The translations under genes were made by a program, and so were the position numbers. This document shows, one piece after another, positions 2,165 through 26,564 of a stretch of DNA of 30,074 bases; position 1 is the stretch's first letter, and each line of letters begins with the position of its first letter. Source of the stretch: a virus; the IMG/VR virus record IMGVR_UViG_3300046028_002339, positions 1-30,074 of that record, one strand, 5' to 3'. The notes beneath the pieces are model-generated. The model was given only the letters and a program-made list of their open reading frames with translations. It was not told where the DNA came from and searched no databases.

Positions 2165-2920
2165 ATGAAAGTATCTGAACTATTTGAATCATTAGAAGAA
2201 GGGGTAAATGACCCTCACCTATTCAAAGCTATTGCCATGATAGGCCCAATGGGCGCTGGCAAAAGTACTATTGCTAAACAATTGGTAGGTGGTTCAGGAT
2301 TACGTAGTCTTAATTTAGATAACTTTAATGAATTATTAATTAAGCAAGGTAAAGTTACAGGTGGCAATCTTACACCTGACCAATTAGAGCGTAGCTGGCA
2401 ATTAACACAAACACAAAAAGGTAACTGGGTTTCTGAGCGTTTGGGATTATTGATTGACGGGTCAGGAAGAAACGTTGAAGGGTTAGTTAAACCACTTAGA
2501 GAATTAGAAACATTGGGTTATAATACAATGGTGATACTTGTTAATGTAAGTTTAGAAACAAGTTTACAAAGACAACAATCCAGAGCAGCACAACAAGCTA
2601 AACAATTTGGTACAGGTAGAAATGTCCCGTTAGACTTAGCAAAGTCAAGTTATGAACAGATACAACAAAACATTCCTAAACTAAAACAATTGTATGGCAA
2701 TAGATTATTAATTATTAACAATGACGGGGCAGTTGATTTATCACAAGAACAAAGTATTGTTAGTAGATTTTTAAATTCTCCGCCATCTAGTCCTGCAGCT
2801 GCCCAATGGATTAAGTCACACGGACAAGCACAAGGACAACGATTAGATAACAGATTGGCGCAACAACAAAGACAGGCTGCGTCAGCACAAAGAAAGCCTG
2901 CATATACCCAAGGAAGCTAA
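2165..2920 (+). CDS. P-loop kinase with capsid-targeting-like leader
   Basis: Residues 27-35 (GPMGAGKST) form a Walker A. With the LLIDGSGRN and VNVSLETSLQRQQSR segments this matches the small P-loop kinase type (AAA_33/zeta-toxin/polynucleotide-kinase-like). The substrate cannot be told. The first 12 residues (MKVSELFESLEE) followed by GVNDPHLFK look like a cleavable leader ending in L-x-E; the same E-GVNDP-x-LFK junction recurs inside the 8215 protein. The C-terminal 40 residues are rich in Gln, Ala and Arg and probably disordered. The start lies 1 nt after the previous stop. A packaged, injected kinase is inference. Confidence 0.75.
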   Translation: MKVSELFESLEEGVNDPHLFKAIAMIGPMGAGKSTIAKQLVGGSGLRSLNLDNFNELLIKQGKVTGGNLTPDQLERSWQLTQTQKGNWVSERLGLLIDGSGRNVEGLVKPLRELETLGYNTMVILVNVSLETSLQRQQSRAAQQAKQFGTGRNVPLDLAKSSYEQIQQNIPKLKQLYGNRLLIINNDGAVDLSQEQSIVSRFLNSPPSSPAAAQWIKSHGQAQGQRLDNRLAQQQRQAASAQRKPAYTQGS

Positions 2921-8214: not shown

Positions 8215-10149
8215 ATGGACATTAAAACACTAGAATCGTTTAAGCTAGCAGACGCAGTTACCTTTCACAACACCCTTAATCCCAAGTTGTGGCGCGGTCA
8301 AAACCTACGCCCTGAAGTGGAGCAGCAATTGAAATTGATTGCAGAGGACTTTATTGATGAATTGGGAATAAAGGGCATTGATGTGCGGGATATCACAGTG
8401 TCTGGTAGTAATGCTGCTTATAGTTATACTCCACACAGCGATTTAGATTTGCATATCTTAGTAGATTTGTCATCAATGCCAGATAATGAGGTTTATCGAG
8501 AGTTCTTTGATGCAAAAAAGACAATATACAATGATTCACACACGATTACGGTGCATGGAATCCCAGTAGAATTATATGTACAAGATGCCAGTCAGCCAGT
8601 AGTTAGTTTAGGCGAGTATAGCATATTGAACAACAAATGGATTCGTCTTCCCACTAAGCGTAGAGCAAACTTCGACCAAACTGCAACTAAATCAAAATAT
8701 CAAAAGCTATTAAGCTTGATAGAATTGGGATTGAAATCAAAAAGCTTGGATACGATTACCAATGTTCTAAAAACAATTAAACGATATCGGCAAGCTGGGT
8801 TAACTAACGGTGGAGAGTTTGGTCCAGAAAATCTAGCTTATAAAGCATTACGCAAGCAAGATTATATCACACGCTTATATCAACTACGCGATAAGTTACA
8901 TAGTGCAGATTTAACTATTGAAAATATGTATGCTGTTAGGAAGCCTGTTAAAGATAAATTTGCAGATAGGTTAGCTAAAGAATTCAAACAATACCGCGCC
9001 ACTGACGAAGATTACGATCCAAATGGTCCTCCACCTGGGCCAGAATTCAAGCCTACCATGCCCGCTGGCACTGTTAGAGTAGATGTAAGTGATGTGTATG
9101 ATTGGTACAAGTTGGGACAAAACATCAGCGACCTTAGCAGAGTAGATCCTAGTATTTTTGGTAAGGGGCCTCCTAGCACTATTATTTCTTTTGGTAGTGA
9201 AGATGCCGAACACAATTACATTAACGCATTGAAGAACTTGGGTCTTGATACCACAGACATAGATCCTGTTGATCCCAAGCAACCTAAAAATATGCAGCGG
9301 CAGAAAACAGATCCTACCTTTAATGTCAACGAAGAAGATGAGCTTACTGAAGGTGTTAACGATCCATCTTTATTCAAAGTGGTGTTCATTGTAGGCGGCC
9401 CGGGCAGTGGCAAAAGTTATGTATCTGACCGATTGGGGTTACGGGCGTTAGGATTTGTACCTATCAATAGCGACATTGCGTTTGAATATCTAATGCAGAA
9501 AAAGGGCTTGGATTTTGCAATGCCACCTGAAGAACAAGATGAGCGTAATATTGCCCGTGCCAGAGCTAAAGAACTTACAAAGAAAAAAGAAGAATTAGCA
9601 ATTGATGGTAGATTGGGTTTAATTATAGATGGTACTGGTGATTCTTGGGAGAAATTTGTTTCTATTCGCAATCGCTTAGAGACATTGCTTGGATATGAAT
9701 CGTTTTTAGTATTCGTTGACACCAGTTTAGATTTAGCACTATACAGAAATCAAATGAGAGAAAGAAAAGTTCCAAATAAAATAGTTGTTAAGAAATGGGA
9801 ACAGGCTCAAAGCAATTTAACAATGTACAAATTACAGTTTGATAAATGGGCCGTCATTAAGAATGATAACCATTCTTCTGATAAGATTGAAAAGGTACAC
9901 AAGCAGATTGCTAGTTGGGCACGTAAAATGCCAACTAATAAACAAGCACAGCAATGGATCAAGCAACAAAAACAACCTGCAGTAACAACTGAAGCAAGTG
10001 GTTACATTCCAAGCAACAAAGAAAAGAATGATCCTCGTTTTAAGACAGCACTAACAGTGGATGTTAATCCATATTCAATCCAAAAGAATGCAAAAGCATT
10101 TGGATTTAAAGTTAGCAGAGCCGGAATCCCGCCACTACTACATCCTTAA
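8215..10149 (+). CDS. Nucleotidyltransferase - P-loop kinase fusion with cleavage-like junctions
   Basis: A 644-residue multi-domain protein. Residues about 20-240 form a nucleotidyltransferase: SGSNAAYSYTPHSDLDLH has the G-S...S-D-x-D signature (D76, D78), and VELYVQD may give the third acidic residue. A Pro-rich linker follows. After LTE (377-379) the sequence GVNDPSLFK leads into a P-loop kinase with Walker A GGPGSGKS (394-401) and LIIDGTGDS, similar to the separate kinase at 2165. After VTTE (ending at 593) comes a basic C-terminal module, ASGYIPSNKEKNDPRFK and TALTVDVNPYSIQKN, which I recall from other phage proteins. L-T-E/G fits the T4 prohead protease site and T-T-E/A nearly does, so processing into three products is plausible but inferred. 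Confidence 0.75.
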   Translation: MDIKTLESFKLADAVTFHNTLNPKLWRGQNLRPEVEQQLKLIAEDFIDELGIKGIDVRDITVSGSNAAYSYTPHSDLDLHILVDLSSMPDNEVYREFFDAKKTIYNDSHTITVHGIPVELYVQDASQPVVSLGEYSILNNKWIRLPTKRRANFDQTATKSKYQKLLSLIELGLKSKSLDTITNVLKTIKRYRQAGLTNGGEFGPENLAYKALRKQDYITRLYQLRDKLHSADLTIENMYAVRKPVKDKFADRLAKEFKQYRATDEDYDPNGPPPGPEFKPTMPAGTVRVDVSDVYDWYKLGQNISDLSRVDPSIFGKGPPSTIISFGSEDAEHNYINALKNLGLDTTDIDPVDPKQPKNMQRQKTDPTFNVNEEDELTEGVNDPSLFKVVFIVGGPGSGKSYVSDRLGLRALGFVPINSDIAFEYLMQKKGLDFAMPPEEQDERNIARARAKELTKKKEELAIDGRLGLIIDGTGDSWEKFVSIRNRLETLLGYESFLVFVDTSLDLALYRNQMRERKVPNKIVVKKWEQAQSNLTMYKLQFDKWAVIKNDNHSSDKIEKVHKQIASWARKMPTNKQAQQWIKQQKQPAVTTEASGYIPSNKEKNDPRFKTALTVDVNPYSIQKNAKAFGFKVSRAGIPPLLHP

Positions 10150-10206: not shown

Positions 10207-10767
10207 ATGAAAATCAGTCAACTACTTGAAACAACCACAGCAGGTGCAATAGCCAGCGTGGCCCAGCCAATGGGTACGCAAACTAGATCAGGCAAAAAAG
10301 CAGGATCAATGTTTAAAGGTAAAAAGACTAATAAACCTTTCTATGAGTCAGACTTGCAAGAAGACGATATTATCGTAGTTCCAGGACAGGGGCGGATTAA
10401 AAAGTCAGGTTTTGTTAAGCACGACCCTGACCAAGCAGAACACGAAGGTGAAACATTAAAGAACAGTCTACGCACAATCATTCGGGTAGCAACTGATTTA
10501 GACAAAGAACTATCAACCAGAGACAACTTCCCGGAATGGGTATCAGAAAAGATTGGTGCAGTTAAGAGTAACATGGTAAGTGTTATGGACTATTTAATCA
10601 GTGCAAAAGAAATGCAACACAATCCAGATGCCATGGAAGAAGGTGCCAAAGTAGACCGTATGGTTAAGCATATTGCCAAGACCGAGAAGAAGTTGGGTCA
10701 TTCTAAAAAAGAAGCAGAGAACATTGGCTGGGCCACTGCTAATAAACGTGGTTACTTAGACAAATAA
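10207..10767 (+). CDS. Small phage protein with leader-like N-terminus
   Basis: The frame is open from an earlier ATG at 10174, but 10207 is chosen because it follows the late-promoter-like motif and a GGGA, and because it starts MKISQLLE, a leader ending in L-x-E. The middle has basic stretches (SGKKAGSMFKGKKTNK) and the VVPGQGRIKKSGF segment. The C-terminal 45 residues after MEEGAKVDRMVKHIAKTEKK end in ENIGWATANKRGYLDK, a motif I recall at the end of many proteins of marine T4-like phages. The MEE/G junction again looks like a cleavage site. Function unknown; an internal capsid protein is the likely guess. Confidence 0.65.
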   Translation: MKISQLLETTTAGAIASVAQPMGTQTRSGKKAGSMFKGKKTNKPFYESDLQEDDIIVVPGQGRIKKSGFVKHDPDQAEHEGETLKNSLRTIIRVATDLDKELSTRDNFPEWVSEKIGAVKSNMVSVMDYLISAKEMQHNPDAMEEGAKVDRMVKHIAKTEKKLGHSKKEAENIGWATANKRGYLDK

Positions 10768-15193: not shown

Positions 15194-16828
15194 ATGAGAG
15201 CACAAGATTTTTTAATAGAAGGCGCAACGGATGTTTTGTATCACAAGACATCTACTAGATCGGCCGCAAATATCCTTAAAGATGGTGTGTTCAAACTGGC
15301 CAGTTCAGTAGGCACACAAGCAGAAGAACAATATGCGCCACCGGGGAGACCTTACTTTTTAAGCACCAGCCGCAGCAAAGCAGGTGACTATGCTCGATGG
15401 GTTGGCTCAAGTGAGGTTATGTTTAACTTGAATGGACAGTGGTTGGCACAGCGATATAAAGTAAAGCCAATTGATTACTGGGAACGCGCTTGGCAACATA
15501 GTCCCGAACGCACCAGTGAAGGTGAAGATAGAGTATTCTCTAAAGATCCAGAAATCTCTATAGAATGCGTTACCGCAGTTCACGCTTTTATTAAATCAGC
15601 AGATGAATGGCGCAGCCCGTATACCAGACAAGTTTTACTTGTAGCCAAGCAGCGGGGAATCCCGGCATACTTGTACACTGATCCTCAGGCTTGGAAATTA
15701 CAAGACACTAGAAAAGCCGTCAGCCCTCAACAAGCAGCAGCACTGCTTAAAGGTTCAACACCAGTTCGTAAACAATATAAGCCAGCAAGTTCATACTTGG
15801 AACCTTGGTTAGAACTTATCTATAAAAAAGCAAAAAGTGAACTCTCCCCTGCGGCAGAAAAACTACGGCATAATTTAGTTTACTATGGTCTTCGTTATCC
15901 AAATGAAGACAGTGGTCTTGCATCTGATATGAATAATAGTAGAAAGCCTGACAGTCCTGATTATGCCAATGTAGACAAACTAATCAAGTTTATGCGTGCC
16001 AATCGCCTGGCCAAGCCTACTGACTTAAAGAATGCACTCGCACAAAAATGGGACGCAATCAACACCAAAGAGCAAGAGAGTGCTAAGGGTCAGCAACCTG
16101 TGGCGGAAGGCGTACCGCAGCCGGGAGAAAGTTCCGGTGCTCCAAAACAGTTTGGTCCCGATGCTAAAATACAAACTCGCCAAATGACTGTAAAAGATAT
16201 TATATCATCTGTGCCGGGGGTGCCTTATTATAATAATGTAGTTGATGATTGGGACGCCAAAGATTATAGTTGGGGTGTCACTAAAAAGGTTATAGAGTAT
16301 GCTACTTACTTGAAGGATCATCCAGAAAGTTTAGCAAAGTTGCCACCAGCAATAGTATTAAACGGTAAGTTTGAAGATGGCGCCCATAGGGTATCTGCTA
16401 TATGGTTGCTACAACAAAGAATGGATCCTAAAAATCCAATTTGGGCTAATGCTAAATTAAATGTTCAATTTGTTAAGCAAGGTGTGGCGGAAGATACAGG
16501 AGCTAATATTCCACCAGTATTATACCATGCCACTTATAAACAACGATTGAAAAGTATTCAATTAAAAGGTTTGGGAGCAGCCGGCAAGCGCAATTGGACA
16601 GATAGTAAGCGTGGTATTGTATATTTGGCATTAGATCCCGATGTGGCTGAAAGTTATGCGGAAACAGCATTGGATGATTTAGATGCTGATTGGGATATTG
16701 TCATACTTAAAATTTCAACAAGTGGCTTAGATACAAACAAGTTTCAATTAGATAGAAATGTATTGGACAACGAAGGCGACACATTAGAGTATCACGGTAT
16801 CATTCCTCCAGGGAATATTGGATTATGA
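15194..16828 (+). CDS. Two ADP-ribosyltransferase-like domains around a ParB-like domain, with capsid-targeting-like leader
   Basis: A 544-residue protein with AAGGA ribosome binding site at 15184-15188. The leader MRAQDFLIE is followed by a first ART-like domain (VLYHKT with H17, then FLSTSRSKAGDY). A linker ending PVAE (303-305) precedes a domain with IVLNGKFEDGAHR (D395, H398, R399), like the ParB/sulfiredoxin signature. A second GVAE (431-433) precedes another ART/Tpt1-like domain with VLYHAT (H445), VYLALDP and LEYHG (E532), matching an H-Y-E type. T4 packages an ART (Alt) and injects it, so this is a plausible functional analogue. The ART calls rest on short motifs and need structural confirmation. 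The stop overlaps the next start (ATGA). Confidence 0.7.
   Translation: MRAQDFLIEGATDVLYHKTSTRSAANILKDGVFKLASSVGTQAEEQYAPPGRPYFLSTSRSKAGDYARWVGSSEVMFNLNGQWLAQRYKVKPIDYWERAWQHSPERTSEGEDRVFSKDPEISIECVTAVHAFIKSADEWRSPYTRQVLLVAKQRGIPAYLYTDPQAWKLQDTRKAVSPQQAAALLKGSTPVRKQYKPASSYLEPWLELIYKKAKSELSPAAEKLRHNLVYYGLRYPNEDSGLASDMNNSRKPDSPDYANVDKLIKFMRANRLAKPTDLKNALAQKWDAINTKEQESAKGQQPVAEGVPQPGESSGAPKQFGPDAKIQTRQMTVKDIISSVPGVPYYNNVVDDWDAKDYSWGVTKKVIEYATYLKDHPESLAKLPPAIVLNGKFEDGAHRVSAIWLLQQRMDPKNPIWANAKLNVQFVKQGVAEDTGANIPPVLYHATYKQRLKSIQLKGLGAAGKRNWTDSKRGIVYLALDPDVAESYAETALDDLDADWDIVILKISTSGLDTNKFQLDRNVLDNEGDTLEYHGIIPPGNIGL
16099..16109 (+). repeat. Junction 11-mer TGTGGCGGAAG (four copies)
   Basis: Identical copies at 16099-16109, 16483-16493, 19316-19326 and 20285-20295, always in the same frame and encoding (P/G)-V-A-E followed by Gly, Asp or Glu. 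Each lies between recognisable modules of two different genes. Confidence 0.85.
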
Positions 16829-18126
16829 GAGCAAACGAATTTTTAATTGAATATGTAAGAGAGAAAACCGCACAGGCACTTGGTGACAAGTTGATTTCTG
16901 CGTTAGCAAACTCTCGCACCGGGACCATCCCCGATAGTTGGTATAATTGGCAGACACTGGTAAACATGGCATTGCATCCAGAAAATTATGGAAGACCACT
17001 GTCATTGAATCTAGTTGGTAAGCGTATGGTTGTTGCTCCTGTCGCCACTCAGCATACTACAGAGAATGATGTGCCCACCGCTGCCGCCGCCCTACCACAG
17101 TTAAAACCACAACTTGTTAATGCCATTCTTGCAGAGATTGAAAATCATGACCCAACTGCCAATAAAGAATACACTCAATGGTTAGCCAGAGTGTGGGCTA
17201 ATGCCAATGGTAAATTGAAAATGGAAGACTTGAATCGCGGGCAATTTGAGGGAGGGTTGTTAAGTGCATACACTAGAGCTAAACGACGCAAACTAATCAA
17301 ACCCGAACACGCTGATATCAACAGGTTCAAAACCTATGGTGAATTTGAAAGAGCCATGATGGATGAGTATGATTGGGACAAGATTGAGCAATCTGAGAAG
17401 AATGTCGACAAAGGCCAATCAAAAGAATTATACACCGATGCTGATGTAAGAGTTATTGTCCCTGCAGATGAAAAAGCAGCGTGTTACTATGGACAAGGAA
17501 CTCAATGGTGTACTGCGTCAAAAAACAACAACATGTTTAATCACTATGCTAAGCAAGGTGATATGTATATACTGCTACCAAAGAAACCACAAGAACTAGA
17601 TGAGAAGTATCAGTTACATTTTGGTACTAATCAATTCATGGATTCCAGAGATGAGCCTGTTGCTTTAAAGTCTCTCTTTGACAGATTTCCTGGATTCAAA
17701 GCATGGGCAGTGGAAAATCTACCCGAGGTTCAGAATAAAATTGAATATGCTTCTGATGAATTGGTAGCTAAACTGTCTAAGCCAATTGGAGATTATATTC
17801 TTGGAGAAGCTCGCAAGATGTTTAAAGATTGGGATGAAGGTCAAGATGCGGATGTTGACGCATTCTACGAAGAAATACGAAATATTGTTAAGATGACACC
17901 AGACCAAATCAGAGCCGCCGCAGATGAGTATGCTGATCCATATGCAGATGATGTAAATGCACCTGATCTTTCGCAATTACCTGCCATCTTTGGTTTAGTC
18001 ATTGAAGACAAGCTAGAGGATTCGTATGATGTCAGCGAGCTTGTCCATAATCTAAACCAAAATGTGCAAGTTAGACAAGGCAAGTGGCCCGCAAGTTCGG
18101 GTGAATGGAATGTTTACGCTGCGTAA
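16825..18126 (+). CDS. Phage protein with WCTA motif and capsid-targeting-like leader
   Basis: The 433-residue product starts MRANEFLIE, nearly identical to the leader of the preceding gene, and overlaps it by ATGA. The central part has VIVPADEKAACYYGQGTQW followed by CTA, then a tyrosine-containing helix, YILLPKK, KYQLHFG and QFMDSRDE. I recall this GTxWCTA / KYQxHF / QFMD combination as a conserved phage domain without an established activity. The C-terminal third is acidic (DWDEGQDADVDAFYEE, YADPYADDV). No signal peptide or membrane segment. Enzymatic function is possible from the conserved W, C, H and D residues but unproven. Confidence 0.65.
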   Translation: MRANEFLIEYVREKTAQALGDKLISALANSRTGTIPDSWYNWQTLVNMALHPENYGRPLSLNLVGKRMVVAPVATQHTTENDVPTAAAALPQLKPQLVNAILAEIENHDPTANKEYTQWLARVWANANGKLKMEDLNRGQFEGGLLSAYTRAKRRKLIKPEHADINRFKTYGEFERAMMDEYDWDKIEQSEKNVDKGQSKELYTDADVRVIVPADEKAACYYGQGTQWCTASKNNNMFNHYAKQGDMYILLPKKPQELDEKYQLHFGTNQFMDSRDEPVALKSLFDRFPGFKAWAVENLPEVQNKIEYASDELVAKLSKPIGDYILGEARKMFKDWDEGQDADVDAFYEEIRNIVKMTPDQIRAAADEYADPYADDVNAPDLSQLPAIFGLVIEDKLEDSYDVSELVHNLNQNVQVRQGKWPASSGEWNVYAA

Positions 18127-18135
18127 TATAACACC

Positions 18136-18597
18136 ATGAGAGTACAAGAATTCATCACTGAGTTATTTGACCCAAAAACAGCCCTGCCCTTAAAGTGGGA
18201 TGAGCAGTTTGCTGCCAGCCACAATGAAGTTCACGTTGAAGCAATGGACGAAGAGGGTCGGGAACTTTATATATCATTTGTTCCTGTGGGTTTTCGCAGC
18301 ACTGTTATTGAGATAACATTCACCCGCGAAGGTAGTTATGATATTACTGGACAAGGCGATGCTGCCCGAGTATTAGCCACTGTTGCTAAAGCAATTGATA
18401 TCTATTTGCGTAAGTATAGCCCCAAATATGTTGTGTTCAGTTCCAAGGAAGGTAGCAGAACCGGTGTTTACTCAGCAATGGTCCGTAGATTAATGAAGGG
18501 CTATACACAAGTACCACCAGACCAGTTTCCGCCTGGATTAGAAGAGTGGGGGGGAAACACACAAGGTGGGACTGCGTTTGTATTCAAAAGAATATGA
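18136..18597 (+). CDS. Phage protein with GNAT-like features and Alt-like leader
   Basis: A 153-residue protein starting MRVQEFITELFDP. The T4 Alt protein starts MELITELFDE, so the shared ITELFD core is notable. The body has alternating strands (LYISFVPVGFRSTVIEITF) and a helix followed by YVVFSSKEGSRTGVYSAMVR, which recalls the end of a GNAT-like fold, but the acetyl-CoA loop is not convincing. No ribosome binding site is obvious; it lies 9 nt after the previous stop. The stop overlaps the next start (ATGA). Confidence 0.6.
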   Translation: MRVQEFITELFDPKTALPLKWDEQFAASHNEVHVEAMDEEGRELYISFVPVGFRSTVIEITFTREGSYDITGQGDAARVLATVAKAIDIYLRKYSPKYVVFSSKEGSRTGVYSAMVRRLMKGYTQVPPDQFPPGLEEWGGNTQGGTAFVFKRI

Positions 18598-19244
18598 AAC
18601 CCACAATAGCAATATTCCTACATCATCCTGAATGTAGTGAGGATTGTGTCGATGGCATGACTCAAGCATTAGGTGATCATTACACGATTAAAACATTTGA
18701 TGTTGAGGAATGTATACCCACTACTTTTGAAGGAGTAGACATTGTAGCATTCCCAGGTGGTATGGGAGAAGCAATTGCATACGATAGATTCTTCCGTCGT
18801 AAAGCACAAAATGCAGTTGCTGACTATATAACTAACGGTGGAAGATATCTTGGCATCTGTATGGGTGCTTATTGGGCAGGCAGCTATTACTTTGACTTAC
18901 TTGATGGAGTGAAGGTAATCAATTACATCAAACAACCCACCAGTGATATCAAACGCAGCTATGGCACAGTAGCCCCTGTACTATGGAATGGCGCCCCCGA
19001 GAATATATTCTTTTATGATGGGTGCGCCATGCTAGGGGATACAAATAAGTTTGAGACAATCGCCACATATGCCAATGGGGATGCTGCGGCAATCATTCAG
19101 GGCCGAGTGGGTATTATAGGGCCACATCCCGAAAGTCTTGAATATTGGTATCAGTCACCTTATCAATACCTCAACAAACACTGGCATCACGGCACCCATC
19201 ATAAGTTGTTATTGGGCTTTGTTGATCAACTAATGCATAAATAA
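18594..19244 (+). CDS. Class I glutamine amidotransferase-like protein (BPL_N type)
   Basis: The frame is open further upstream, but ATG 18594 overlaps the previous stop as ATGA and gives a compact 216-residue protein beginning MKPTIAIFLHHPECSED. The nucleophile elbow GICMGAYWAG places Cys at residue 89, and GPHPES places His178 and Glu180, completing a Cys-His-Glu triad of the class I amidotransferase fold. The subgroup with GGxGE and GICMGAYW is like the N-terminal domain of some biotin-protein ligases (BPL_N), whose reaction is not well defined. Unlike its neighbours it has no capsid-targeting-like leader, so it may act in the infected cell rather than be packaged. Confidence 0.8.
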   Translation: MKPTIAIFLHHPECSEDCVDGMTQALGDHYTIKTFDVEECIPTTFEGVDIVAFPGGMGEAIAYDRFFRRKAQNAVADYITNGGRYLGICMGAYWAGSYYFDLLDGVKVINYIKQPTSDIKRSYGTVAPVLWNGAPENIFFYDGCAMLGDTNKFETIATYANGDAAAIIQGRVGIIGPHPESLEYWYQSPYQYLNKHWHHGTHHKLLLGFVDQLMHK

Positions 19245-19251
19245 GAGTAAC

Positions 19252-19257
19252 TAAATA
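19252..19257 (+). promoter_or_regulatory. TAAATA motif abutting the 19263 start
   Basis: TAAATACAATTATGAA at 19252-19267 is identical to 25298-25313, so promoter-like motif, spacing and start context are shared by two unrelated genes. There is no Shine-Dalgarno. Confidence 0.45.
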
Positions 19258-19262
19258 CAATT

Positions 19263-20789
19263 ATGAAAACCTATCAATTTATTACCGAAACACAAACCAC
19301 CCTTATGCAAGATCCTGTGGCGGAAGGTGAGAATTGGTCAAAGCACAATAATAAACGTGCAGGTGGGATGAGTAAAAAGAGTGTAGCCAGTTATCGCCGT
19401 AGTCATCCAGGCAGCAAGATTCAAACAGCAGTAACAACTAAACCAAGCAAACTTAAAAAAGGTAGCAAAGCGGCTGCCCGTCGTAAATCATTCTGTGCTA
19501 GAATGCGTGGAATGAAAAAACATCGTACCGGTGCTAAAACAGCAAATGATCCAAATAGCAATATAAACAAAAGTTTGCGTAGATGGCATTGTGAATCTAT
19601 TGAAGAACTGAATGAGTTAGTACTACTTGCCGAAGCGTGGAGTCAAAAATATAAATCTAGTATTAACTGCTCGCATCCTAAAGGTTTTTCGCAAAAGGCT
19701 CATTGTGCTGGTAAGAAAAAACACAATGAAAGTATTGAGATGGAAATGGTCTGTGAGGATTGCGGGATGTGTGAAACGCACGGAGACCATACACGTGATA
19801 CATTAGATGAAGCATGTTGGAAAGGTTACCACAAAGAAGGTAACAAAAAGATGTTCGGTAAAACTGTTCCTAACTGTGTAAAGAACGAAGATATTGATGA
19901 AGACCTAAGCCGTAGAGGATTCTTACGTGGGCTAGGTGCGGCGGCTGTGGCAGGTGCAGCTGGATCTGCAATGGCACAATCACGTCCTGTTGATGTTTCG
20001 AGAGAATTCCAAAACATGCGTCAAGATGATCCTCGTGTGCAACACAATAAAGACATAGAGGAAATGGCACGATCAATCTATGAACAAATAGTTGCCACAC
20101 GTGGCCAGCCTATTGATCGCAGACAACAACAGATGTGGATGACTATTGCTAGAGAAAAAGCCACTGAAAAGTTATCTAAGTATGCCCCAGGAAGACCTGC
20201 GCCGCAATCACAAAGTTCAGGATTCCCTGCTCAAGGCAGTGAACGTAGAGTTTCTAGAAATATAGATAATTTTGAATCGCAAGGTGTGGCGGAAGAACAA
20301 CATAGTTGCCCACAATGTGGTGGTGAGATGGTCAGTGAAGAACTAATGAACGAAAAGAAAGATGCTTGCTACTACAAAGTCAAGAGCCGTTATAAAGTAT
20401 GGCCAAGTGCTTATGCCAGTGGTGCATTAGTTAAGTGTCGCAAGAAGGGTGCAGATAGTTGGGGTAACGGTGGAAAGAAGAATGAAAGTTCTATATTAGA
20501 AGGCATTGAACAAGCAGACGAAAGTTTGCACGATTGGTTCACCAAAGAAAAATGGGTACGCATGGATACTAAAGGAAACATTAAGGGGCCATGTGCAAGA
20601 GAACCGGGAGAAGGTAAACCAAAATGTTTGCCACAAAGTAAAGCACACAGTTTGGGCAAAAAGGGACGTGCCAGTGCTGCTGCTAGAAAACGTCGAGAAG
20701 ACCCCAACCCCGATCGTCGTGGTTCGGCCATCAATGTTAACACCAAACGAAAAACCAATGAAGTTAATGATGAACGTCTACCGACGTAA
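19263..20789 (+). CDS. Basic polyprotein of small phage modules with embedded Tat signal
   Basis: A 508-residue, Lys/Arg-rich protein. The leader MKTYQFITE matches the T4 internal-protein leader MKTYQEFIAE almost exactly. Further x-x-E junctions follow: PVAE/G (21), LAE/A (124), LDE/A (183), IDE/D (213), VAE/E (344) and ILE/G (413). Modules between them are a basic module (RRKSFCARMRGM, NKSLRRWHC), a Cys-containing module (AWSQKYKSSINC), ACWKGYHKEG...VPNCVK, a segment beginning SRRGFLRGLG that is a twin-arginine signal, a CPQC zinc-ribbon-like piece with YKVWPSAYASGALVKC, and a C-terminal basic module (LHDWFTKEKWVRMD, KGPCAREPGEGKPKC). I recall several modules from marine phages as separate proteins. 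Processing by a prohead protease into DNA-binding or injected peptides is inferred. Confidence 0.7.
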   Translation: MKTYQFITETQTTLMQDPVAEGENWSKHNNKRAGGMSKKSVASYRRSHPGSKIQTAVTTKPSKLKKGSKAAARRKSFCARMRGMKKHRTGAKTANDPNSNINKSLRRWHCESIEELNELVLLAEAWSQKYKSSINCSHPKGFSQKAHCAGKKKHNESIEMEMVCEDCGMCETHGDHTRDTLDEACWKGYHKEGNKKMFGKTVPNCVKNEDIDEDLSRRGFLRGLGAAAVAGAAGSAMAQSRPVDVSREFQNMRQDDPRVQHNKDIEEMARSIYEQIVATRGQPIDRRQQQMWMTIAREKATEKLSKYAPGRPAPQSQSSGFPAQGSERRVSRNIDNFESQGVAEEQHSCPQCGGEMVSEELMNEKKDACYYKVKSRYKVWPSAYASGALVKCRKKGADSWGNGGKKNESSILEGIEQADESLHDWFTKEKWVRMDTKGNIKGPCAREPGEGKPKCLPQSKAHSLGKKGRASAAARKRREDPNPDRRGSAINVNTKRKTNEVNDERLPT

Positions 20790-20813
20790 TCCTGCAATTA
20801 TATTAGATTTATA

Positions 20814-22061
20814 ATGAGAGCAACAGAGATATCCCCGCGCAAGTTGGTCATCTTCGACATCGATGATACCCTAGTCCACACCCAAACTGAAGTCCATGTT
20901 GTAAAGAATGGTCAAATAGTAGATAGTCTTAACAGTCACGACTTTACCCACTACCAGCTACAACCCGGTGAGTCATTTGATTTTAGAGCATTCCGTGATG
21001 CTAAAGAATTCTTTGAAAAATCTAGACCGATTATTCCAATGATTAATCAACTAAAGCACGACATTGCTACTGGTAATAAAGTGGCAATGGTTACTGCTAG
21101 GGCCGATTTAAATGATAAAGAATTGTTCTTAGACACCTTTAGAAAGTACGGCATTGATATGAGCAAGGTCCATGTATATCGTGCTGGCAATATGACTAAC
21201 TCTATTCAAACAGAAGAAAAGAAAAAGATTATTATTAGGGGGTTACTAAATAAGGATCATTATTCTAAAGCTATTATGTATGATGATGCTATTCCAAACT
21301 TAGAATCCTTCCTTAGTCTTAAGTCAGAATATCCCGATACTGTGTTTTATGCCTGGTATGTAAGTCCTGAAGGTAAAGCCAGTGAGTATCAGCGCAGCAA
21401 TGAAAGTATTACGGAAAGCACTAGTTTAAAAACTACTATAACTGCGATTGCTAGCGATATCGGAGAACCAGTTGCTACTGTCTACGCTACTATGGCAAAT
21501 ATGGCTAAACGCTATGTTGAAAAAAACGGAGGCTTAAAGGGATTTAATTTTATATCAGGTGGTGTGGGTTCGCGGTGGTTTCAAACATTCTATGTCAATA
21601 AAATACAGTCCGAATTATATGATTTAGTTAAGTTTAACCCACAGTTAACTGCGACATTAAAAAATTTCTTGCGCGGGCGTATCAACTCAGTGGGCAATCT
21701 AGACCAAGTAAGTGGATTCAGTGAGTTGAGTAATGCATTACCCAATATACTTATTGACTTGGGTACTAAACTTAATGCACCCCAGTTAACTAAAAGTGCG
21801 CAAATATGGATCAAAAAAAGAGATGCGTATAGACGGTACTTGCACGATTTAGAATTTGGACAAGAATCTGATGTGCCAGCCTCTACTGCTCTGCCATCAG
21901 CAACAGGTCAACAGCAACAACAAGTTGATAACATAGTTAATGATGTACTTAAATCATTGCCGAGTAGTATAGCCGGAGATATCCGCAATGCCATTTCTCG
22001 TAGTCCCAATAAACTAACTGCATTACAACAAGAATTAAAAGATCGTAATATAACACTATAA
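20814..22061 (+). CDS. HAD-family phosphatase with helical C-terminal domain
   Basis: The N-terminal half is a HAD hydrolase: D15-I-D17-D-T19 supplies the aspartate nucleophile and acid/base, MVTAR the motif II threonine, and IMYDDAIPN the acidic motif IV. Proteins of this type in phages act as 5' or 3' nucleotide phosphatases, but the substrate is unknown. After NESITE (ending at residue 201) comes a domain of about 215 residues, mostly helical, with GGVGSRWFQTFYVNK and many small polar helices, that I do not recognise. I-T-E/S is another possible processing point. The start MRATEI resembles the neighbouring leaders but lacks the Glu at position 9. No ribosome binding site is evident. Confidence 0.75.
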   Translation: MRATEISPRKLVIFDIDDTLVHTQTEVHVVKNGQIVDSLNSHDFTHYQLQPGESFDFRAFRDAKEFFEKSRPIIPMINQLKHDIATGNKVAMVTARADLNDKELFLDTFRKYGIDMSKVHVYRAGNMTNSIQTEEKKKIIIRGLLNKDHYSKAIMYDDAIPNLESFLSLKSEYPDTVFYAWYVSPEGKASEYQRSNESITESTSLKTTITAIASDIGEPVATVYATMANMAKRYVEKNGGLKGFNFISGGVGSRWFQTFYVNKIQSELYDLVKFNPQLTATLKNFLRGRINSVGNLDQVSGFSELSNALPNILIDLGTKLNAPQLTKSAQIWIKKRDAYRRYLHDLEFGQESDVPASTALPSATGQQQQQVDNIVNDVLKSLPSSIAGDIRNAISRSPNKLTALQQELKDRNITL

Positions 22062-22081
22062 TAACACAAAGGGGGCATTGG

Positions 22082-22261
22082 ATGGTAACAAAAAAGGTAA
22101 CTACTAGAAAAAAGGTTGTTGCGCCTCCCGCACCACCGGTCGCATCGCCAGCTGCAAAAGGTGTCCCGACTGCCGCCATTGGTTTAGGTATGGTTGTTCT
22201 TACAAATTATCAAGCAGAAGTGAAACAGGTATTATCATTGTTATTGAAGGTAGTAATGTAA
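22082..22261 (+). CDS. Small basic/hydrophobic protein (59 aa)
   Basis: ATG at 22082 follows an AAAGGGGG ribosome binding site at 22068-22075, one of the strongest here. The product has a basic N-terminus (MVTKKVTTRKK), a Pro/Ala linker (APPAPPVASPAA) and a moderately hydrophobic C-terminus (AAIGLGMVVLTNYQ, LSLLLKVV). It could be a membrane-associated or structural peptide. Its stop lies 1 nt before the next ATG, so it is probably cotranslated with the membrane protein that follows. Confidence 0.6.
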   Translation: MVTKKVTTRKKVVAPPAPPVASPAAKGVPTAAIGLGMVVLTNYQAEVKQVLSLLLKVVM

Positions 22262-22262
22262 T

Positions 22263-23009
22263 ATGAAAATATTGAATAAATTTTTAGAATTTAAAAAAAC
22301 TCCATACATCATCACAGGAATTATATTCCTTTGTAGCTTAGTAGTTCTAAGCTGTTTTAAAAATGCAGAAACACAGTTGTCTATTCTAAATCAAGCTGTG
22401 TCATTCAGTCGCAACATGACTAAATCATCTGACGAGTTGACCAACTACGCCAGATATTTTGTAACAACCAAAAATGAACAGTGGAGAACAGAATTTAACC
22501 ATGTTCTTAAAATACGCAACGGTTCCATAGCAGATGAAGCAGGCGTTACGAAATCATTCAAAGATAGATTAAAAGAGGTTCCCTTCCTACAATCTGAAAT
22601 AAACATAATATTAAATGCAGAACAGTTAAGCAACAATCTTGCCAAGTTAGAAGTTGCTGCATTTGCCTGGATTGACAAAGGTAAACCAGAATATAATACC
22701 GAAGTGCAAGTGCATCATTACACTGCGGCACAGATGTTAATGTTTGGTGATGACTATAAAAAATATAAAAAAGAAATCGTCAATGCCACAACTGAATTTT
22801 ATTCGTCAGTTGTCAACAGATTGCAATCACAATATTTGTTTTATATGTCAGTGGCCTGGGCGATGATTATTGTTATCAATCTGAGTTTAATTTTACTAGT
22901 GATGGTTATTAAGCATAAAGAAACACCAGTAACCAAACCTACTAGAACTATTAAAAAACCACCAATCAAAAAACCTATTGTCAAAAAAAGCACAGTGGTA
23001 CATAGGTGA
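22263..23009 (+). CDS. Chemoreceptor-like membrane protein: sensor domain without signalling domain
   Basis: A 248-residue protein with two membrane segments (about 15-32 and 195-217). The region between resembles the four-helix-bundle sensor of methyl-accepting chemotaxis proteins: SSDELTNYARYFVTTKNEQW followed by HVLKIRNG matches the LTxxARxYVxTGDxxW...IRNG pattern. A normal receptor would continue with HAMP and a long coiled signalling hairpin, but here the protein ends 30 residues after the second membrane segment in a Lys/Pro-rich tail (KPTRTIKKPPIKKPIVKK). It therefore looks like a stripped receptor embedded in the inner membrane. Possible roles are blocking a host receptor, superinfection exclusion or signalling to lysis; none is shown by the sequence. 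Confidence 0.7.
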   Translation: MKILNKFLEFKKTPYIITGIIFLCSLVVLSCFKNAETQLSILNQAVSFSRNMTKSSDELTNYARYFVTTKNEQWRTEFNHVLKIRNGSIADEAGVTKSFKDRLKEVPFLQSEINIILNAEQLSNNLAKLEVAAFAWIDKGKPEYNTEVQVHHYTAAQMLMFGDDYKKYKKEIVNATTEFYSSVVNRLQSQYLFYMSVAWAMIIVINLSLILLVMVIKHKETPVTKPTRTIKKPPIKKPIVKKSTVVHR

Positions 23010-23039
23010 GAGCAAGTATGACATTTAATGGAGTACAGA

Positions 23040-23222
23040 ATGGATTCAGTTCAAGAAATTCAAGTTAAAATGGTTAATGATTTATTGGACATAGAATCCT
23101 CTACCACGTTTGATCTAGACAAAAGAAAAATGGTTGAATTGGCATATGAAAAGGCATACTCTTTATTAATGCAGGCTAGAATCTCTGACGAATCTTCTAC
23201 TACAACATTTTTAGATAAATAA
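23040..23222 (+). CDS. Small hypothetical protein (60 aa)
   Basis: ATG 23040 is preferred over the in-frame ATG at 23028 because GGAG at 23030-23033 lies 6 nt upstream. The product (MDSVQEIQVKMVNDLLDIES... TTTFLDK) is mostly helical and acidic with no motif I recognise. It sits between the membrane protein and the Dps-like gene. Confidence 0.55.
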   Translation: MDSVQEIQVKMVNDLLDIESSTTFDLDKRKMVELAYEKAYSLLMQARISDESSTTTFLDK

Positions 23223-23237
23223 GCAATAAGGTTACAT

Positions 23238-23678
23238 ATGTTAGACACTCAACTAAAAACACTGCTAGGAAGTACTTTTGTACTTTATACTAAAGTTCAT
23301 GGATTTCATTTCAATGTGGAAGGCGAGAATTTTCCGCAATATCACAAATTCCTGAATAAATTTTATACTGATGTGTATGAAACAATTGATGTTATCGGAG
23401 AGTATATACGCACATTAGACGCCTATACTCCGGGATGCTTAACTAGAATGGTAAATCTTAGCATAATTCCTGAACAGGAGCGGATCCCTAGAGCAGAGTT
23501 AATGTTTGAAGAATTGTATGCTGATACCGCTAAGATGATTGAATTCGCTGTTGCTACCTTTGATATAGCTACTTCAGTTAAGGCTCAGGGTATAGCAAAT
23601 TATATGGCCGAACTGCAAGACTTATACAGTAAAAAGCAATGGATGCTACGCAGCATCTTAAAGAAAGCTAGGGCATAA
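23238..23678 (+). CDS. dps: Dps-like ferritin
   Basis: A 146-residue four-helix protein of the Dps family, which binds DNA and oxidises and stores iron in a dodecameric cage. The ferroxidase ligands fit E. coli Dps in spacing: H24 and H36 (FHFNVEG...YHKFL), then D51 and E55 (12, 15 and 4 residues apart, as in H51, H63, D78, E82). The ATG has an AAGG 9 nt upstream. It is shorter than most Dps and lacks a lysine-rich N-terminal tail, so DNA binding may be reduced. Likely role is protection of DNA from peroxide during infection. Its stop overlaps the next start (TAATG). Confidence 0.9.
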   Translation: MLDTQLKTLLGSTFVLYTKVHGFHFNVEGENFPQYHKFLNKFYTDVYETIDVIGEYIRTLDAYTPGCLTRMVNLSIIPEQERIPRAELMFEELYADTAKMIEFAVATFDIATSVKAQGIANYMAELQDLYSKKQWMLRSILKKARA

Positions 23679-24493
23679 TGCAGGCATATGAATTTATCAC
23701 TGAAATAGAACGCTTACCTAAATCAGGGTATGTGGGTGGCAAGTCTACTTTAAAACAAAATCCTGAATATGTCAAGCAAACGCAATTGCCTACTGCCAAG
23801 CCGTTGCCCGGGGGTAGCGGATTGTTGTACGGGATCGATGCCAGGGACTATCAAACAGTAGTTAGAATATATGACCCCGAGACCAATCAACCAATTGGTG
23901 CGCTGAAGTTATATAACCTAAAAAAATGGGAGTGGCCATTTCAGCCTGCGTACCGAGTCAACACTATTACCACTGACGAGGATTATCAGGGCCAGAGCAT
24001 TGCCAAATCCTTGTATGGCATTGTGCTGACAATAATGCAGGCTACCCTGTTGGCAGGCACACAGCAGACACCTGGCGGCAGAGCATTGTGGGTCAGACTG
24101 ACTAAGGGAATACGCGGGGTAGAAGTTACCGGCTATCTAACTGTTTCTGATTCAGATTTAGAGGCCGACACCAGTGGTATTCCAAAAAATCTTCCGGACT
24201 TTGCTAAAATGGAAAAAGCTCTGGCTCGGAACGCACAGAAGACAATCAATAGTATTAATTCCATAGGTGCTCAATACATAGGCGAGATTGTTGAGCCTGG
24301 CAGCGGCAGTAGGCGTGTATATCAATTCCCTGTTACTGTTAATATTACTGCGCGTGGTGAAGAAGTGGCCAATGCTGACAAAGAATCAAAAATTGCTATA
24401 TACAACAATTTTATGCCCAGGTACAACAGTGCAGGAAAACGTGCAACAGAACGCCCCTGGGAAACAGGATTAATGGCAAGGTGGCTAGGATGA
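23678..24493 (+). CDS. GNAT acetyltransferase with capsid-targeting-like leader
   Basis: The leader MQAYEFITE is followed by a domain with GALKLYNLKKWE (strand 4), then VNTITTDEDYQGQSIAKSLYG, where QGQSIA is the acetyl-CoA pyrophosphate loop (Q/R-x-x-G-x-A) of GNAT enzymes. It thus probably acetylates a protein or small molecule. The C-terminal 100 residues (after about 165) have no recognisable motif. The gene overlaps the Dps stop and its own stop overlaps the next ATG (ATGA). Packaging and injection are inferred from the leader only. Confidence 0.75.
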   Translation: MQAYEFITEIERLPKSGYVGGKSTLKQNPEYVKQTQLPTAKPLPGGSGLLYGIDARDYQTVVRIYDPETNQPIGALKLYNLKKWEWPFQPAYRVNTITTDEDYQGQSIAKSLYGIVLTIMQATLLAGTQQTPGGRALWVRLTKGIRGVEVTGYLTVSDSDLEADTSGIPKNLPDFAKMEKALARNAQKTINSINSIGAQYIGEIVEPGSGSRRVYQFPVTVNITARGEEVANADKESKIAIYNNFMPRYNSAGKRATERPWETGLMARWLG

Positions 24494-25206
24494 GAGCAGT
24501 TGATATTTGTAATGAAGCAGAGTTAATTAATAGACCTGTAGTTGAAGCCGATCTTGACAGTCAAGAAGGCAAAGCTATTGTGTCCCAATTAAAACAAGCA
24601 GGCTATCGTATGTTGGGCAAGGGTGCAGATGCTACAGTGTGGACTAAAGATGCAGGCACTGTGATTAAAATCATAATGCCTGATTTAGAATCTGCCGACA
24701 CTGCCGCTAAAACTTTCTACAAGTTTTATGAATTCTGTCAGCAAAATAAAGGCGTAGCACATCTGCCTAACTTTGTTGATATCAATGGTAAACATTATAC
24801 TACCTTTGAAATAGGAGGCAAAGAGTTTGTTCAAATCGCAATGGAACATCTCTATAAAATTAAAAAACATAGCTTTGAAGAAGCCATGGTGTGGAATCTA
24901 AGTGAGTTTGCAAGTAATAGGTTGTCTTGGAACAAAGCGTTAGCCGCATTACGAGCACCAGCTAGCTGGGAGCATTGGACTGCTCCTCCATCAGTAAACG
25001 CTATCACACGATATGTAAACACGTTGGATCCGCAAAGTTTACAAGAATACGAAGTTCTTTACAAACTTATGGTGATATTGTATCACACCGGCAAGATAAA
25101 TAAATTAGGTTGGGATTTACACACCGAAAATGTTATGCAACGCAATGACGGTACTCTTGTAATCATCGACCCGTGGTTTGCACTGAATGAAAAGAAACAT
25201 CCTTAG
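24490..25206 (+). CDS. Protein-kinase-like enzyme with leader-like N-terminus
   Basis: ATG 24490 overlaps the previous stop and gives 238 residues starting MRAVDICNE, similar to neighbouring leaders. Kinase-fold motifs are a glycine-rich loop (LGKGADATVW, 42-51), VIK with K60, a catalytic loop GWDLHTENVM (D209, N214) and a metal-binding IIDPWF (D227). The HxDLHxxN / IDP pattern is shared by small kinases including aminoglycoside and choline kinase types as well as Ser/Thr kinases, so the substrate is open. T7 encodes a protein kinase (gp0.7) that alters host transcription, a possible analogue. The stop is TAG. Confidence 0.8.
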   Translation: MRAVDICNEAELINRPVVEADLDSQEGKAIVSQLKQAGYRMLGKGADATVWTKDAGTVIKIIMPDLESADTAAKTFYKFYEFCQQNKGVAHLPNFVDINGKHYTTFEIGGKEFVQIAMEHLYKIKKHSFEEAMVWNLSEFASNRLSWNKALAALRAPASWEHWTAPPSVNAITRYVNTLDPQSLQEYEVLYKLMVILYHTGKINKLGWDLHTENVMQRNDGTLVIIDPWFALNEKKHP

Positions 25207-25308
25207 GACCGGTACTAGTTACCGTGGTGTGGCCGGCTGCTGGCCTGAGTATTAACCATTCGCTACGGTGAACCTCAAAAGTGAGCACAAATACTGATAA
25301 ATACAATT
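25207..25308 (+). other. Structured intergenic region
   Basis: A roughly 100-nt gap with several short inverted repeats: CGGTA/TACCG (25210-25224), GGCC/GGCC (25231-25245) and CTCA/TGAG (25274-25285). It is richer in G and C than its surroundings and has no T tract. A small RNA or a decayed terminator is possible, but no known RNA family is recognised. Confidence 0.3.
25298..25303 (+). promoter_or_regulatory. TAAATA motif abutting the 25309 start
   Basis: The second exact copy of the TAAATACAATTATGAA unit, preceded by GA. No Shine-Dalgarno is visible. Confidence 0.5.
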
Positions 25309-25884
25309 ATGAATTCTACTGATTTTATCTCTGAAACCCCTGCTATCGAATTGGCAAAAAAGTTGCCTTCATTAGAAAAACATAATTACACCACTATTGA
25401 CAAGCTAATGCAACAAATTGCACGTAAACATCGCATAACTGGCGATGCTCTTCACGACTTGTTCGTTAGAAAATATAGACGGTCACCTGACAGTTGGATT
25501 AAAGGTAAATTGGATGAAGAGGATGCAGGGCTAGACATTCAAGCTGAAGTAGATAAGTTCGTTGACTGGGCTGCTAAAAGATTAAACCTGCAATCTCTTC
25601 CCCACGTTGAATTAAGCGACGATACTAAAGAGGCACAAGACGAACATCACACTGGTGGCCACATTGTAGGTGACGATAATATTTGGGTTTATGCGAAAAA
25701 TCGTAACTTGGTAGACATACTTCGTACCGTGTTCCACGAATTGGTTCACGTTCGGCAAGGTGAGTTAAATATGATAAAACCAGGAGCTAGTTATCCCGGG
25801 AGCCCAATAGAGGTTATGGCAGATATGTTGGCTGGAAAATTTATCAAGATATATGGCGAGAAAAATCACCACATATTCCAATAA
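25309..25884 (+). CDS. Zinc metallopeptidase with capsid-targeting-like leader
   Basis: A 191-residue protein starting MNSTDFISE. A first domain (about 28-65, TIDKLMQQIARKHRITGDAL, then DLFVRKYRRSPDSW) is a helical unit I recall from other phage proteins. The second domain holds the HExxH zinc motif (HELVH, 143-147) and a downstream Glu (E168 in SPIEVMAD) as a possible third ligand. A peptidase acting on a host or capsid substrate is likely from these residues; the substrate is unknown. A hairpin follows the gene. Confidence 0.75.
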   Translation: MNSTDFISETPAIELAKKLPSLEKHNYTTIDKLMQQIARKHRITGDALHDLFVRKYRRSPDSWIKGKLDEEDAGLDIQAEVDKFVDWAAKRLNLQSLPHVELSDDTKEAQDEHHTGGHIVGDDNIWVYAKNRNLVDILRTVFHELVHVRQGELNMIKPGASYPGSPIEVMADMLAGKFIKIYGEKNHHIFQ

Positions 25885-25970: not shown

Positions 25971-26564
25971 ATGCTCAAATTACTTTTCCCTTTGCCAAGA
26001 CAATTAACTGTGGCATTTAGTGGCGGTCTTGATAGCGTTGCTGTTGCTGACTTTTTAAGTAGAAAACACGATATCGCCTGTGCATTTTTCCATCATAGGA
26101 CCGATAATTGTGACCGTGCCGAAGAGTTCGTAACCCGATTTTGTTCTGAGCGAGGCATTACTGTTCACCTAGGGAAAATTAGTATAGTTCCCAAACCAAA
26201 GCAAATGAGCATAGAAGAATATTGGCGCATTGAACGCTATCAATTCCTCTCTACATTTGGCCCAGTAGTAACCGCCCATCACTTAAATGATTGCGTTGAG
26301 ACTTATATTTGGGGGTCAATGCATGGCACTCCTAAAGTTATTCCAACGGTGCGTGATAATGTACTTCGTCCGTTTTTGACTACTCCTAAAGCTGAATTTT
26401 CCAAGTGGTGCCGGCAACATAATTTAGAATGGTGTGAGGACGCAAGTAATCGAAATATTCAATATACCCGTAATTATATTAGACATGAAATGATGCCACA
26501 TGTCCTAAAAGTAAATCCCGGTATCGATACAATGGTTAAAAAGATTGTTGAAAAACAAGTGTAA
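25971..26564 (+). CDS. tilS: TilS-like tRNA(Ile)-lysidine synthase (short form)
   Basis: The PP-loop SGGLDS (17-22) gives the ATP pyrophosphatase core, and FHHRTDN, TAHHLNDCVETY and RPFLTTPKAE follow the TilS order; NIQYTRNYIRHEMMP matches the tRNA-binding RNxLRxxxxP motif. TilS changes C34 of tRNA-Ile(CAU) to lysidine so that it reads AUA. At 197 residues it is about half the length of E. coli TilS and lacks the C-terminal domains. It starts at the only suitable ATG, which coincides with the expected transcription start, so the mRNA is probably leaderless. It begins the sigma70-driven replication side of the window. Confidence 0.85.
   Translation: MLKLLFPLPRQLTVAFSGGLDSVAVADFLSRKHDIACAFFHHRTDNCDRAEEFVTRFCSERGITVHLGKISIVPKPKQMSIEEYWRIERYQFLSTFGPVVTAHHLNDCVETYIWGSMHGTPKVIPTVRDNVLRPFLTTPKAEFSKWCRQHNLEWCEDASNRNIQYTRNYIRHEMMPHVLKVNPGIDTMVKKIVEKQV

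Follow-up and report, generated by a model that had tools for sequence, protein, structure and literature searches.

Leader-borne effectors and putative polyproteins in a T4-like jumbo phage: a probable packaged arsenal with cassettes joined at protease-type sites

Introduction

The internal proteins IPI, IPII and IPIII of phage T4, together with Alt, have unrelated bodies behind a short N-terminal leader with an F-I-x-E-type end, which is processed by the prohead protease gp21. Ten N-terminal residues are enough for packaging; targeting depends on residues 4 and 7 and processing on residues 8 and 10, the latter being stopped by Asp at position 10 (PMC9026906). Here we analyse leaders of this kind, and similar sites inside proteins, in a complete IMG/VR record of 30,074 bases (IMGVR_UViG_3300046028_002339, hereafter the window) from a large freshwater virus of bacteria. 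An earlier note on this DNA had proposed that a run of genes at 15194 to 25884 carries T4-type capsid-targeting leaders. We consider that the region probably encodes effectors that a T4-like jumbo phage packages as an arsenal, comprising leader-borne single effectors and polyproteins that the prohead protease would mature and that would have arisen by the shuffling of cassettes at a linker. Genes are named by the position of their first base, and a slash within a peptide marks a known or predicted cut.

Several other systems are similar in part. Polyvalent proteins, described from phages and conjugative elements (Iyer et al. 2017; P1 DdrB), also combine ADP-ribosyltransferase (ART), ParB-like, kinase and zincin domains in one polypeptide, and are thought to be injected with the DNA. 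However, the processing of P1 DdrB is ascribed to an internal metallopeptidase domain, whereas here the modules start behind hydrophobic-x-E sites of prohead-protease type, and a linker conserved as DNA joins the cassettes. P1 DarA and the head and ejection proteins of the giant phages phiKZ and SPN3US are internal, ejected and matured by a prohead protease, which in the giant phages cuts after Glu and sometimes at several sites; the reported cuts remove propeptides, and the separation of several functional domains is not among them. T4-like cyanophages have T4-GC 119 and similar proteins (for example SSM1_115 and SSCSM1_29), which are mosaics of DUF6321 and DUF5872 modules with hydrophobic-x-E junctions, although their leader is less clear. 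At the DNA level, Rickettsia palindromic elements are words repeated in frame inside genes, and integron cassettes are exchangeable and bounded by repeats. The word described below differs from both in being about 20 bp long, non-palindromic, read in one frame only, and placed at the domain borders of polyproteins. No integrase was noticed among the open reading frames (ORFs) of the window; complete genomes were not screened for one. A literature search within one collection of papers found no account of prohead-protease polyproteins of this kind.

Results

The window contains a B-family DNA polymerase (27100-29589), which has 509 relatives in viral contigs. Among cultured phages its nearest relatives, at 43-49% identity, belong to jumbo phages such as Phosso, Atu_ph07, XaC1 and GAP32; at the DNA level, megablast matched the region to no cultured phage. 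Sequences were compared in a clade pool of 2.4 Mb, consisting of polymerase loci, all or large parts of the relatives G001 (335 kb), G002 (98 kb, with a polymerase 88% identical to that of the window), G003 and G006, and loci added subsequently. Where no annotated record was available we predicted genes with a simple script of our own, and some of their starts may be wrong. DNA patterns were searched in 2.9 million viral contigs.

Six window genes (15194, 16825, 18136, 19263, 23678 and 25309) begin with the pattern M-x4-F-[IL]-x-E, with the Glu at exactly residue 9. F6, I7 and E9 line up with F7, I8 and E10 of the T4 leader MKTYQEFIAE, as quoted in the earlier note. This strict leader is present on 41 of 1174 distinct clade proteins and at none of 6180 internal Met positions in the pool, and no clade protein matches when the spacing is shifted by -1, +1 or +2. 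The corresponding DNA pattern, ATGAGAGCNNNNGARTTYATHACNGAR, was found with its exact spacing in at least 120 stretches of the viral contigs, and with one extra codon in none of the same contigs. The leader is thus not due to chance. A looser pattern, M.{2,7}[IL].E, was only 1.8-fold enriched and was rejected as evidence on its own. The [IL]-T-E codons of the leader show synonymous variation at about genome frequencies, and the constraint therefore acts on the protein. As the search pattern of this comparison preset F, [ILV] and E, the constancy of F6, I7 and E9 is circular and was not used.

Compared with that of T4, the leader is one residue shorter and has the consensus MRAxEF, and its genes often stand in tandem. 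It precedes at least 24 clusters of bodies, with no similarity detectable between clusters. These include an ADP-ribosyltransferase exoenzyme, a LysM plus SLT lysozyme with a twin-arginine signal, GNAT-like and amidoligase proteins, and many of unknown function. One large family consists of proteins of about 130 residues (L183, L181, L136 and about 80 others, MRAREFITE...), often encoded by two adjoining leader genes; the one member tested had no Pfam match, and these phages may package such a protein in abundance.

The ORFs and N-termini of the earlier note are as it described them, and its interpretation is borne out in part. The central proposal, that a set of effectors carries capsid-targeting leaders of T4 type, is well supported by the enrichment, the strict spacing, the match to T4, and the protease, capsid protein and cyanophage virions discussed below. 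Some of its examples are weaker than it supposed, and two or three of the leaders that it listed do not fit. Apart from the six genes named above, it listed MRAVDICNE (24490), which lacks [IL]-x-E at residue 9, and MKISQLLE (10207) and MKVSELFESLEE (2165), which have a hydrophobic-x-E sequence but not F-[IL]-x-E. The four genes that it noted as starting with ATGAGAGCA are 15194, 16825, 24490 and 20814, the last of which (MRATEISPRK) has no cleavage-like Glu.

Published virion lists based on mass spectrometry (MS) exist for the Synechococcus phages S-CREM2 (PMC10665884, Table 3) and S-SCSM1 (PMC9602691). Using annotated starts for about 500 coding sequences, leaders were compared with virion status as given in these two papers and in record notes. 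Four S-CREM2 virion proteins have T4-type leaders, namely the SAM hydrolase (MKDFDSFLEE/), gp13 (MKDLHSFLTE/), the kinase gp14 (VKRFDAFLTE/) and the cytidylyltransferase gp154 (MKNFSSFLTE/), as does the virion NMNAT of S-SCSM1 (MKSFLQFLKE/). Across the two phages all proteins with a T4-type MK or VK leader are in virions (5/5; pooled Fisher p = 0.0003; 0.0015 if one atypical regex match is included). A very wide leader pattern was also tried and rejected (S-CREM2, p 0.1; S-SCSM1, p 0.045), and only the F-[IL]-x-E form discriminates. Looser leaders are found on two further S-CREM2 virion proteins, gp136 (MQTFSMFFSE/) and the Cas9-like gp12 (ASFMAE/). In gp12 (OR473000, 7704-10313, - strand; our locus L244) the capsid-targeting-like sequence ...LRFASFMAE/A lies near the N-terminus, and the annotated start may be too early. 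On the basis of the T4 analogy and the cyanophage data, protein packaging is well supported as a prediction for the phage studied here, and the leader, which would then be cleaved, very probably serves to load the tagged proteins into the head for injection into the host.

The earlier note had called for a gp21-like protease gene to be located. A search of the window for the S77 family found none, which is uninformative for a 30-kb fragment, but both Peptidase_S77 and Gp23 are found above Pfam cut-offs in the relatives G001 and G002. Their gene order is T4-like: portal, acidic core protein, S77, scaffold, Gp23. His85 and Ser140 of gp21 are invariant in the alignment. The cleavage site of T4 Gp23, FLTE65/A, aligns to LLAE/S, LAE/T and, in S-CREM2, LLTE/A, with L63 and E65 invariant, which lends indirect support to a putative hydrophobic-x-E specificity of the clade protease.

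The earlier note missed a larger feature: unlike in T4, sites of the same hydrophobic-x-E kind recur many times inside proteins, at the borders of modules. Several of the "effectors" are therefore polyproteins of shuffled cassettes with a linker conserved as DNA. A body encoded behind a leader in one gene frequently recurs at an internal position in a different protein. When the body starts behind leaders were projected onto such internal placements, hydrophobic-x-E ended exactly at the module start in 26 of 53 distinct cases, against a background of 1.7% per position. For example, MKIQEFITE/STSLKTTITA in a relative (L082) corresponds to NESITE201/STSLKTTITA in window protein 20814, and MRAGEFITE/AWSEKYKRSINCS (L133) to LLAE124/AWSQKYKSSINCS in 19263, while the module of MRAEEFITE/DLRKWFKEKW (L132) is found in five different internal contexts. 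The site is common to unrelated module families, and is therefore not simply the homology of one domain. Modules of the 19263 polyprotein also occur, with the same kind of junction, in SSCSM1_29, S-CREM2 gp137 and S-CREM2 gp160, all of which are cyanophage virion proteins detected by MS.

Twin-arginine signals of the RRxFLxG type provide a further test. In the pool, 13 of 14 distinct signals, at up to residue 714 and including that at about residue 214 in the window, start 1-6 residues behind a hydrophobic-x-E (p about 1e-11 against a background of ~12%). A twin-arginine signal buried in a polyprotein can serve no purpose without a cut immediately ahead of it, and this is the strongest argument from sequence for internal cleavage. 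The evidence as a whole makes it very likely that the prohead protease processes the polyproteins to their mature form.

Outside low-complexity sequence, and counting distinct contexts, no 5-mer is more over-represented than the linker QGVAE (14, against 0.23 expected). Most linkers are a near-invariant DNA word, CAAGGTGTGGCGGAA, with the flanks AAg and Ggc, giving an extended word of about AAgCAAGGTGTGGCGGAAGgc (K-QGVAE-G); the information in the DNA drops to near zero beyond about -2 to +16. In 61 contexts Val is GTG in 53 and Ala is GCG in 53, these codons having genome frequencies of 10% and 7%, respectively. The word with common codons (GTW GCW) was found in 31 stretches of the viral contigs and the GTG GCG word in at least 120, whereas from codon usage the common-codon word should be about 90-fold the more frequent. 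Within one cassette family of 11 sequences the synonymous codon difference is 0.07 in the linker and 0.38-0.45 in the body. Translational pausing at rare codons was considered as a cause and rejected, as it leaves unexplained the conservation of one exact word that includes common codons. The word is read as QGVAE in 338 of 340 distinct occurrences, with essentially none outside ORFs. Bacterial genomes gave 36 single matches, in unrelated taxa and mixed frames, and this is chance level. The window has two exact words and one variant.

The cassettes on either side of the linker form mosaics. The ParB-like cassette of the 15194 protein (residues about 303-433) was aligned with 16 other copies, of which 15 are 81-97% identical to it and the last 67%; the neighbours differ on both sides and the homology stops at the linker. 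Downstream of this cassette the linker can also be PGVAE, QDVTE, QGMAE, QGVTE, QGITE, QNINE, QGVVE, all of the form hydrophobic-x-E. A census gave 446 cassette instances in 287 families, of which 83 are recurrent and 76 of these occur in at least two left contexts. There are 1-7 linkers per polyprotein.

The features of the window are listed in Table 1. The 15194, 19263, 8215 and 20814 proteins each have two or more unrelated effector domains. In the 15194 protein AlphaFold2 gives a predicted local distance difference test score of about 90 for residues 11-298 and low scores at the leader and after residue 298, where the alignment is thin, so that these scores are not evidence of disorder. By Foldseek this first domain is similar to ADP-ribosyltransferases of the DarT kind (E about 1e-3, probability 1.00). 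The next cassette has a weak resemblance to the ParB/sulfiredoxin fold (E 0.06), and residues 434-464 have a weak Pfam PTS_2-RNA match, below the cut-off. The start of 16825 overlaps the stop of 15194 (ATGA). In the 19263 protein the order behind the leader is PVAE21/ and a basic DUF6321 module, LLAE124/ and a AWSQKYKSSINCSHP module, DIDE213/ and a twin-arginine module, QGVAE344/ and a DUF5872 (KDACYYKVKSRYKVWPSAYASGALVKC) module, and finally an LHDWF module. The N-terminal domain of 8215 resembles, by eye, S-CREM2 gp156, a virion protein detected by MS. The repertoire includes ART, ParB, Kinase-PolyVal and zincin domains, several of them as weak matches only and the zincin by motif only.

Table 1. 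Leaders, internal sites, linkers and effector genes of the window.
Feature	Position	Strand	Basis or remark
Zeta-toxin-like kinase behind MKVSELFESLEE/GVNDP	2165..2920	+	Same module internal in 8215-10149
Nucleotidyltransferase-like domain fused to Zeta-like kinase at ELTE379/GVNDP	8215..10149	+	
MKISQLLE leader-like protein, uncertain member	10207..10767	+	
Leader gene 1, polyprotein: MRAQDFLIE9/, DarT-like ART (residues 11-298), VAE305/, ParB/sulfiredoxin-like cassette (residues 306-433), QGVAE433/, second ART (KptA)-like module (residues 434-544)	15194..16828	+	
Capsid-targeting-like leader MRAQDFLIE	15194..15220	+	Leader pattern and spacing tests
Cassette linker variant CAACCTGTGGCGGAA (QPVAE/G), 2 mismatches	16094..16108	+	DNA word match
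Cassette linker, exact word CAAGGTGTGGCGGAA (QGVAE/D)	16478..16492	+	DNA word match
Leader gene 2, MRANEFLIE/, WCTA-containing phage protein of unknown function (phrog_17056)	16825..18126	+	
Leader gene 3, MRVQEFITE/, DUF6934-like	18136..18597	+	
Leader gene 4, polyprotein, MKTYQFITE9/	19263..20789	+	Module order in text
Internal hydrophobic-x-E site VAE21/G, before DUF6321 module	19317..19325	+	
Internal site LLAE124/A	19623..19634	+	L133: same module behind leader MRAGEFITE/
Internal site IDE213/, directly before twin-arginine signal	19893..19901	+	
Twin-arginine (TAT) signal SRRGFLRGLGAAAVAGAAGSAMAQ within polyprotein	19908..19979	+	PF10518
Cassette linker, exact word CAAGGTGTGGCGGAA (QGVAE/E)	20280..20294	+	DNA word match
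HAD/polynucleotide-kinase-like phosphatase, degenerate leader MRATEISPRK, fused at SITE201/ to further module	20814..22061	+	Module alone behind MKIQEFITE/ in L082
Internal site SITE201/S	21405..21416	+	
Leader gene 5, MQAYEFITE/, GNAT-like (weak)	23678..24493	+	phrog_15502; relative L121 weak Acetyltransf_1
Kinase with imperfect leader MRAVDICNE	24490..25206	+	Kinase-PolyVal below cut-off; phrog_15752 protein kinase
Leader gene 6, MNSTDFISE/, ATELAKKLPSLxKHNY-type domain and HELVH zincin-like motif	25309..25884	+	

Several other genes of the window were also identified. Directly upstream of the first leader gene, 10780-15177 encodes a protein of 1465 residues in which Laminin_G_3/concanavalin A-like domains are repeated and which probably functions in the tail or in adhesion. 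A ferritin-like (Dps-type) protein (23238-23678; PF00210, E 4e-17) lies directly upstream of leader gene 23678, and a PP-loop ATPase of TilS/TtcA type (25971-26564; PF01171, E 2e-33) adjoins the arsenal. The protein at 5004-6002 is, by eye, a PstS-like phosphate-binding protein, a phosphate-acquisition gene typical of aquatic phages. At 3122-3955 there is a cytidylyltransferase/NMNAT-like protein (PF01467) with an internal SVEE/GKG site and no clear leader; since NMNAT-like proteins are detected by MS in cyanophage virions, this may be another packaged effector.

Discussion

On the basis of these observations, we propose that an N-terminal MRAxEF[IL]xE/ takes single effectors into the prohead core, and that the S77 prohead protease would cut after the leader Glu. 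Cassettes of about 50-200 residues would be strung into polyproteins, each starting behind a hydrophobic-x-E site, and the same protease would free them as separate proteins within the head. The freed effectors would exit the head with the DNA, and in some freed modules a twin-arginine signal would become exposed, so that the host could export them. Cassettes on either side of the commonest linker appear to reassort freely, and the word could provide short homology for UvsX-type recombination, such that in-frame swaps would always leave a protease site. We infer internal cleavage, injection and recombination at the word from sequence. A more far-reaching proposal, which we make tentatively and rate at slightly less than an even chance, is that one in-frame word of ~20 bp is both the recombination joint for reshuffling the cassettes and, once translated, the protease site that separates them in the capsid, so that the payload would be rapidly re-assorted in each lineage.

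A number of points weigh against the proposal of a packaged arsenal with matured polyproteins. The window has no head genes, and the protease is taken from its relatives. The strict leader is present on only 13 of 115 linker-bearing ORFs with a 5' end, 74 having some N-terminal hydrophobic-x-E and 28 none. The junction placements, which draw on about a dozen module families, are not independent of one another, and half of the junctions have no site at offset 0, partly because projections are off by a few residues. The virion test is based on five proteins of another family (Kyanoviridae), a looser candidate, SSCSM1_30 (MKTFKQFMSE), was not detected in virions, and the authors of the S-CREM2 study warn that highly expressed non-virion proteins may co-purify (PMC10665884). 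The QGVAE DNA word was not found in S-CREM2 or S-SCSM1 at up to 2 mismatches.

The alternative that survives best is that packaging and cleavage are signalled by the N-terminal leaders alone, the internal sites being fusion scars or flexible linkers in proteins that act uncut, as classical polyvalent proteins. Internal cleavage is deduced from sequence here, and multi-domain injected proteins of the polyvalent type are known, some of which, such as the virion RNA polymerase of phage N4, are packaged unprocessed (PMC5512222). However, a fusion scar would retain the whole leader (MRAxEF), whereas only hydrophobic-x-E is retained, and in front of many unrelated modules. Hydrophobic-x-E is also kept at 18 of 18 ends of one cassette, even where the DNA differs, and the internal twin-arginine signals require a free N-terminus. 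We therefore regard uncut proteins as unlikely.

Less probable still is that QGVAE is mainly a selfish or DNA-level repeat (a recombination hot spot, nuclease site or transposed word) that is tolerated in frame, with cutting incidental. The conservation of rare codons, the uniformity of the word, which is like that produced by gene conversion, and the exchange of cassettes at its borders would all fit such a repeat. But the word is locked to the sole frame that reads QGVAE, and is essentially confined to ORFs, and selection at the protein level is therefore needed; moreover, the junctions without QGVAE have unrelated DNA and are still hydrophobic-x-E. We consider this a poor explanation.

That the leader is some other N-terminal signal common to accessory genes (translation coupling, degradation or membrane targeting) is very improbable: the start is ATGA in 32 of 40 leader genes, permitting overlap with a preceding stop, and a ATGAGAGCA start is itself favoured, but F-[IL]-x-E is conserved as protein and matches the T4 targeting and processing positions (PMC9026906), and proteins with T4-type leaders are present in cyanophage virions.

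Conclusions

The injected effectors of non-model phages are usually found singly, by proteomics. A leader and a linker that are visible in the sequence would make predicted packaged effectors of thousands of "hypothetical proteins" of uncultured phages. Many of these, such as the ADP-ribosyltransferases, kinases, ParB-like proteins and exported lysozymes, are probably involved in counter-defence. If it is true that a single DNA word serves as both recombination joint and protease site, this would be a new way of evolving modular proteins.

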